DNA of 37,446 nucleotides from Deltaproteobacteria bacterium. Lineage in GTDB: Bacteria > Desulfobacterota > GWC2-55-46. The stretch lies in contig JACRCM010000089.1 in the NCBI GenBank assembly GCA_016219025.1, positions 1-37,446 on the forward strand, written 5' to 3'. How positions within the stretch are numbered: the first letter of the stretch is position 1; each line of letters opens with the position of its first letter. Positions 5,088 to 5,998 of this stretch are shown here, piece after piece. The position numbers and the translations under genes were made by a program. The notes under the pieces were generated by a model. That model saw only the letters and a list, made by a program, of their open reading frames with translations. It did no database searches and was not told where the DNA came from.

Positions 5088-5117
5088 TTGAATGATATTT
5101 GCGTTATCTGCTATAAT
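5088..5117 (+). promoter_or_regulatory. Promoter of the ferritin-like/receiver gene
   Basis: TTGAAT (5088-5093), an 18-nt spacer and a perfect TATAAT (5112-5117) lie 23 bp before the start codon at 5141. A GCGGAGG ribosome binding site sits between them, so this gene has a normal short leader. It is divergent from the rlmD promoter. Confidence 0.6.
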
Positions 5118-5140
5118 GGAACGTCTGCGCGGAGGCCGCT

Positions 5141-5998
5141 ATGAAGGACATTGCAGGCTGGATTATGGGCATAGAGGAGAGGGCCGCGAAGCTATACCGC
5201 GAGGCCGCGTCTGCACTGGGCGGCGACGTTGAGATGAGCGCGCTCCTCGCAACGCTGGCCCGCGACGAAGATAGCCATCTCGACGGGATGAGGAGGGCCG
5301 TCCCGCTGATGGGCGGACATGCCGGGGCATGGTCGGTGGTGGACCTCAGCGCCGAGACCATGCGGGCCGTGGAGGCGCGCTTTGCCTCGTGCGAAGGGAG
5401 CATCGCGCGCGGGGAGCTTACGGCCGGGGTCATGGCCGAGTTCATCGCCGACACGGAGTCCTCGGAGTGGAACGACGTATTCCTCTTCATCGTCAACACG
5501 CTCAAGCGCGGCCACAAAGAGTTCACGCCCCTTGCCGTGGGAATGCAGAGGCACAAGAGGAGGATAGAGCGGTTCTTCGAGGGACGCAAGGCCATGAAGG
5601 CGCAGTTGGAGCGCATGAAGGCGCTCCAGGCGTTGTGGCGCGAGAGTTTCCTCGTGGTTGACGACGAGCCGGTTATCGTTGACGTGCTCCGGGCGATCCT
5701 CGAAAACGAAGGCGCGGTGGACGAGGCGCACAGCGGCGCCGAGGGCCTGAAGAAGCTGAAGGCGCGCTACTACGCGGCCATCGTGAGCGACGTGGACATG
5801 CCAGGCATGAACGGCCTGGAGTTCTATGAAAAGGCCGTGGCCATGTATCCCGGCTGCAAGGACAGGTTCCTCTTTTTTACGGGGTCCATGGACGGCAAAC
5901 GTATGGAGTTTTTCAAGCGGCGCAATATAAGGTATCTTGTGAAACCGGCCAATATCTCATCCATAAGAGAGGCCGTAGCCCGGATTATCGGAGGCTGA
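5141..5998 (+). CDS. Ferritin-like (rubrerythrin-type) domain fused to a response-regulator receiver
   Basis: This 285-aa protein has two domains. Residues 1-150 look like a four-helix ferritin-like bundle: acidic residues in helix 1 (E12, E13), an EDSH motif (E43, H46) in helix 2, E106/E109 in helix 3 and H125/E127 in helix 4 could supply a diiron-type site. Residues 168-285 are a complete CheY-like receiver: acidic pocket D174/D175, phosphoacceptor D217 in SDVDMPGMNG, T247 and K268 in YLVKPA. There is no DNA-binding or enzymatic output. GCGGAGG precedes the ATG. The arrangement suggests that metal, oxygen or peroxide status is coupled to phosphorelay signalling; this is inference, and the N-terminal domain may not bind metal. 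No partner kinase is adjacent; the nearest is at 14.3 kb. Confidence 0.75.
   Translation: MKDIAGWIMGIEERAAKLYREAASALGGDVEMSALLATLARDEDSHLDGMRRAVPLMGGHAGAWSVVDLSAETMRAVEARFASCEGSIARGELTAGVMAEFIADTESSEWNDVFLFIVNTLKRGHKEFTPLAVGMQRHKRRIERFFEGRKAMKAQLERMKALQALWRESFLVVDDEPVIVDVLRAILENEGAVDEAHSGAEGLKKLKARYYAAIVSDVDMPGMNGLEFYEKAVAMYPGCKDRFLFFTGSMDGKRMEFFKRRNIRYLVKPANISSIREAVARIIGG

Follow-up and report, generated by a model that had tools for sequence, protein, structure and literature searches.

The window analyzed here is a 37,446-nucleotide stretch of contig JACRCM010000089.1 (positions 1 to 37,446; GenBank assembly GCA_016219025.1) from a Deltaproteobacteria bacterium of the lineage GWC2-55-46 in Desulfobacterota. 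Its forward strand carries an open reading frame (ORF) for a 285-residue protein in which a predicted ferritin-like domain is followed by a receiver domain, with the following features (fractions are counts in a 75-member family alignment).

5088-5117, + strand: promoter-like site TTGAAT-18-TATAAT, sigma-70-like consensus at 10/12 positions
5131-5135, + strand: Shine-Dalgarno-like GGAGG upstream of the fusion ORF
5141..5998, + strand: ferritin-like/receiver fusion gene, ATG start, ORF of 285 aa; full-length relatives known
5141..5620, + strand: predicted ferritin-like four-helix domain, residues 1-160 (AlphaFold2 model, VIA-align, hhalign)
5174..5176, + strand: E12 on helix A, predicted ligand (67/75)
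5195..5197, + strand: Y19, seven residues past E12 as in stand-alone relatives (74/75)
5267..5278, + strand: E43xxH46 on helix B, predicted ligands (E43 74/75, H46 67/75), aligning to the ExxH of relatives
5456..5467, + strand: E106xxE109 on helix C, predicted ligands (E106 75/75, E109 70/75)
5552..5554, + strand: H138 on helix D, predicted ligand (74/75)
5621..5650, + strand: linker, residues 161-170, preceding the receiver
5651..5977, + strand: receiver domain, residues 171-279 (PF00072 match; Foldseek)

A scan of 1.2 kb returned two promoter-like sites of this quality versus 0.4 expected from shuffles; the site and the GGAGG together (5088..5135) suggest that the fusion gene is its own transcription unit. 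Genes around the window copy are of the housekeeping kind (GreA, an RNA methyltransferase, an RNaseH-like protein, a phosphorylase, and pfkB). Elsewhere in the window, a gene for an alpha (eukaryotic-type) carbonic anhydrase (PF00194) lies at 1231-2016 on the reverse strand.

Residues 171-279 belong to the receiver family PF00072, matching its profile at 56.1 bits (curated cut-off, 30.2). The window protein keeps the acidic pair D174/D175, the phospho-acceptor D217, T247, and K268, and all five positions are intact in 56/75 family members. CheY-like receivers were also the best Foldseek matches for this part of the model. The linker ahead of the receiver follows the family consensus L-P-x-V/L-W-x-E, with conservation of L162 in 51, P163 in 52, W166 in 41, and E168 in 44 of the 75 members; the window protein has Q163 for the proline. 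Helix D reaches residue 165 in the full-length model, where residues 158-167 have a pLDDT of <50.

The N-terminal domain was modeled with AlphaFold2 from a two-sequence alignment (the window protein and L001), giving a pLDDT of 77 and pTM of 0.52 for the whole protein and a pLDDT of 84 and pTM of 0.80 for residues 1-160. Modeled helices span residues 4-25 (A), 30-57 (B), 71-89 (an extra helix), 95-106/109-124 (C), and 126-159 (D), forming a bundle of two antiparallel helix pairs. VIA-align 2 placed ferritin-like chains at Z 10-13 against this model, a range that unrelated helical bundles can also reach (Z up to 13). These included YciF (Z 13.0, rmsd 3.5, 140 aligned), TM1526 (Z 12.7, rmsd 2.9, 141 aligned), and rubrerythrin 1b71 (Z 10.8, rmsd 4.4, 135 aligned; model residues 3-160 on chain residues 11-153), along with Dps, CopM, and bacterioferritin. 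A Foldseek search of the N-terminal model against the PDB gave 219 matches at E ≤ 10 and none at E ≤ 0.001; the best was 4rc5 (E = 0.22), and the second was TenA, a non-ferritin. Since a Z of 13 can arise without kinship and the Foldseek matches are weak, the argument for ferritin kinship rests on the sequence link.

That link is strongest in the helix A/B half, which aligned with the class's stand-alone ferritin-like proteins (hhalign E = 2.9e-9), pairing E12, Y19, E43, and H46 with E19, Y26, E49, and H52 of those proteins (Y26 in L214). The stand-alone proteins in turn match PDB entry 1vjx at 9e-15; this is TM1526, labeled a putative ferritin-like diiron-carboxylate protein. For the helix C/D half, the alignment with the stand-alone proteins was not significant (hhalign E = 0.24). 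The rubrerythrin profile PF02915 scored below its curated cut-off of 22.8 bits with the window protein (13.9 bits, E = 0.072 for the whole protein; 15.1 bits, E = 0.03 for residues 1-166) and matched 14/31 family members at E ≤ 0.1, at best 7.5e-8. Residues 1-166 had no match in NCBIfam, and the best E value of a single-sequence PDB search was only 0.077. Considering the model together with the helix A/B kinship, the predicted fold of the N-terminal domain is ferritin-like.

Conservation was counted in L084 and 74 ORFs of the loci fetched; L185_1, whose receiver is its own ORF, and L211_2, whose domain start is incomplete, were excluded, no ORF was called in L117, L212, and L213, and weaker or unfetched class matches such as G400, G420:C40, and G404:C40 fall outside the counts. 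Six residues on four helices, E12, E43, H46, E106, E109, and H138, occur together in 64/75 members, where L198, with unknown letters at position 12, was scored as lacking E12. Other conserved positions are N111 (71/75) and W7 (70/75). At position 135, the Glu slot of a helix-D ExxH such as that of rubrerythrin, every one of the 75 members has A, F, I, L, M, S, T, or V (Met in the window protein), and none has Glu. The candidate set is therefore four Glu and two His, the ligand count of classical diiron sites, with a second Glu on helix C and none on helix D. Ferritin-like proteins are described in a passage of PMC5114695 as binding a di-iron centre via at least six conserved residues. Conservation supports a putative dinuclear metal site made up of E12, E43, H46, E106, E109, and H138; because the C/D half has no significant sequence match, the placement of E106, E109, and H138 rests on conservation and the model.

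These results bear on the original prediction, which had described a rubrerythrin-type bundle with candidate ligands ahead of a complete receiver. The complete receiver is borne out by the profile score and the key residues, and the model, the structural alignments, and the helix A/B alignment favor a ferritin-like fold over an unrelated helical bundle. The term rubrerythrin-type, taken strictly, is not supported, as the helix-D Glu is missing in every member and there is no rubredoxin domain. Among the ligands named, E12, E43, H46, and E109 stand; H125 (His in 8/75) and E127 (Glu in 33/75) were rejected as ligands for poor conservation, and E13 is Glu in 23 and Asp in 16 of the 75. E106 and H138, nearly or fully invariant, were absent from that list.

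The N-terminal domain had strong matches (E ≤ 1.6e-9) in 41/63 genomes of the class, a count that takes in G400 (a 161-aa frame), G436 (an in-frame stop), and G439 (a split match). At E ≤ 0.001, the total was 49/63; the remaining eight were weak matches, mostly to short frames, and the loci fetched from these genomes encode stand-alone ferritin-like proteins. In a sample of the phylum, residues 1-166 as the query matched 20/395 genomes, including that of the window, and a profile search at E ≤ 1e-10 again found 20/395, of which 13 belong to the order of the window and 7 to other parts of the phylum. The loci fetched contain 76 domain ORFs (E < 1e-8), and in 75 of these the ORF continues into a receiver, which makes fusion the rule for the family in these loci; in the sole exception, L185_1, the receiver is the next ORF, 184 bases on. 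The survey for the same fusion in other genomes, proposed with the original prediction, hence found it to recur, and this recurrence rules out a one-off gene fusion or an assembly artifact. A phage or plasmid gene was also rejected, as tblastn with residues 1-166 was empty in plasmids and phages and a scan for viral contigs was likewise empty.

Family members are divergent, with 26 to 45% identity to the window protein in a 31-member set. A scan of named genomes, which relies on short exact peptides and is insensitive, yielded one full-length relative in a Desulfobacterales MAG (L001; 35% identity over 285 residues). Genomes of the class have up to five strong copies. The genome of the window has three, on contigs C48 (the window), C54, and C21, and the tree pairs each copy with one from the same-genus genome G416 (window-L180, 100/97; L111-L191, 100/98; L112-L186, 100/100). 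The window copy and L180 share flanking methyltransferase and zinc-ribbon genes and, by eye, MTAP-like and pfkB genes. The copy on C21 (L112:8905-9990) has a shift of reading frame near its C terminus, either genuine or an assembly error, which makes its K268 count as lost.

No neighborhood conserved across the family was found when neighbor genes were compared across loci. In 5/72 copies, the immediately preceding same-strand gene, no more than 250 bases upstream, encodes a hybrid kinase or an MCP, compared to 1/354 other genes taken from these loci as controls (P = 6e-4). Because L111/L191 and L115/L184 are orthologous pairs, these five cases (with L001) amount to three independent ones; the kinase or MCP was identified by Pfam in L001, L111, and L115 and by custom profiles in L191 and L184. 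The survey of linked kinases proposed with the original prediction thus turned up a few copies that immediately follow a hybrid histidine kinase or MCP gene; most copies, including the window copy, have no kinase beside them. A fixed partner kinase is ruled out, since a kinase or MCP adjoins only 8/76 copies (9 adjacencies, counting either side and strand).

The C54 copy of the window's own genome is preceded by genes for a receiver-HD protein and for a kinase-receiver-GGDEF protein with GAF/PAS domains and followed by that for a HEAT-repeat protein, and L191 has the same kinase and HEAT neighbors. In L114, a receiver-HD protein is encoded two genes downstream of the fusion, and in L199, a hybrid kinase two genes downstream. 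Oxygen-linked neighbors, chosen post hoc and without a control set, include a hemerythrin gene 25 bases upstream of the fusion in L126, another nearby on the opposite strand in L130, and COX1, UbiA, and SCO1 genes just upstream in L199. Some neighbors hint at phosphorelays, chemotaxis, c-di-GMP, or oxygen, and most copies have no such neighbor. Two further observations concern neighboring genes themselves. The kinase-receiver-GGDEF protein was located at L111:9789-13106 and L191:514-3825, and its N terminus in L111 is weakly DapB-like (DapB_N, 26.5 bits), an odd partner for a sensor. In one subclade (L114:8081-8641, L164, L166, L168, L174, L199, and L200), a conserved protein of ~177 to 198 aa is encoded after the fusion gene; all seven compared are alike, with a signal-like N terminus and no Pfam match.

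Both residue sets are complete in 52/75 members, the metal set only in 12, the receiver set only in 4, and neither in 7. The modules are thus not strictly tied, given the members that keep one set without the other in either direction. Losses of the two sets coincide beyond expectation (Fisher P = 0.004), in a test that ignores the tree and in which four of the seven double losses are one orthologous group. That group, L207-L210 (four orthologues in one genus), retains the gene with E12, H46, and E109 replaced and D217 changed to Glu, as if the phospho-acceptor position were locked and both modules had decayed together. In the tandem pair at L125, one copy (L125:10916-11788) retains a single one of the six ligands together with an intact receiver, and the adjoining copy is the reverse, a possible division of labor.

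The best reading, held with a little less than even confidence, is that the N-terminal domain is a dimetal, probably diiron, redox or oxygen sensor that conditions the attached receiver or its phosphorelay. The protein would be a cytosolic response regulator with its C-terminal receiver behind a ferritin-like dimetal domain, in which the six-residue set would bind two metal ions. This site may change in response to O2, peroxide, or iron loading, and that change could travel to the receiver via helix D, which bears H138 and runs toward the conserved linker. The receiver would thereby be altered in taking or keeping a phosphoryl group from hybrid kinases. As there is no other output domain, the protein may switch protein-protein interactions or serve as a phosphate branch conditioned by redox state.

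Receivers usually serve as inputs, and the reverse direction, in which phosphorylation of D217 acts on the ferritin-like domain (as a peroxidase, a scaffold, or an iron-handling module), switching its activity or its binding of partners in the manner of PhyR and CheV, is ranked nearly as likely as the sensor reading, a serious though distinctly tentative alternative. The full receiver in most members and the hybrid kinases upstream in three lineages look like an ordinary phospho-input. However, the 12 members with the metal set and an incomplete receiver suggest that the bundle is retained where phospho-control has probably been lost, and a peroxidase would need an electron-donor domain such as rubredoxin, which is not attached here. 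A site of different metal content, dimanganese or mixed, with catalase-like or oxidase chemistry and the receiver as a regulator or phosphate sink, appears unlikely. The helix-D ligand His lacking its Glu is reminiscent of manganese catalases, and Fe and Mn are indistinguishable by sequence alone; yet the nearest detectable sequence relatives are ferritin-like proteins of the COG1633/TM1526 type, and manganese catalase is absent among the matches listed, which does not exclude kinship. It is similarly improbable that the metal-site residues only stabilize the bundle, with the bundle serving for dimerization in a protein that is a plain adaptor or phosphate sink. L207-L210 do keep the gene after losing ligands and receiver residues, which implies some function independent of metal, but packing alone would favor hydrophobic replacements of buried Glu and His, and the six polar residues are complete in 64/75 divergent members.

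We tentatively propose, at well under even confidence, that this is a previously undescribed diiron response-regulator family, spread and multiplied within one class, with a modified site (a second helix-C Glu for the helix-D Glu) and with mutual control, inside a single polypeptide, between O2, peroxide, or iron loading and phosphorylation of D217. No description of a ferritin-like/receiver fusion was found in the literature searched, which does not imply its absence from print. The relevant parts of PMC10599522 and PMC9100948 carry ferritin-like, rubrerythrin, or response-regulator genes only as separate expression-table entries, and the list of oxygen-sensing domains in a passage of PMC9665402 omits ferritin-like domains. 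The novelty lies in the combination: the receiver is of a known kind and the fold is known, though represented here by a diverged form, and we found no prior description of the two together. If the sensor reading is true, ferritin-like dimetal domains would extend the list of redox or oxygen sensors (heme, Fe-S, hemerythrin, and ODP), with sensing wired directly into a receiver instead of a kinase, and the family may inform cell signaling circuits of the status of oxygen, peroxide, or iron. Members of the family are compact, at ~285 aa, and seem to be soluble, and several of the genomes that carry them are closed or near-complete, so that metal content, redox behavior, and phosphotransfer are directly testable.

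Compared to known systems, the fusion family is nearest in sequence to the stand-alone COG1633/TM1526-type proteins (1vjx), with which it shares the helix-A Glu and the Tyr seven residues later, the helix-B ExxH, and the predicted fold. In contrast, those proteins have a helix-D ExxH, a single helix-C Glu, and no receiver, whereas the fusion family has a helix-C ExxE and only the His on helix D. An ExxE on helix C is also found in rubrerythrin (1b71, 1ryt), which is alike in its four-helix bundle and helix-B ExxH, but classical rubrerythrin has a C-terminal rubredoxin-like domain where the fusion protein has its receiver. YciF-type stress proteins (2gs4, 4eru, and 7tmv) gave the top structural alignments (Z ~13, rmsd 3.3-3.5) but have just 9 to 12% identity and no receiver. 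PhyR and CheV likewise place their effector ahead of the receiver, although their N-terminal module is sigma-like or CheW-like rather than ferritin-like. Hemerythrin and ODP belong to folds and families other than ferritin-like. The redox state of hemerythrin diiron domains controls a diguanylate cyclase and a HD-GYP phosphodiesterase, according to a passage of PMC8846402, and the diiron protein ODP is described in part of PMC7666581 as a chemotaxis oxygen sensor. The hemerythrin-linked Bhr-DGC and Bhr-HD-GYP and ODP thus resemble the putative sensor family in coupling a diiron domain to bacterial signaling, but with partners other than its C-terminal receiver.
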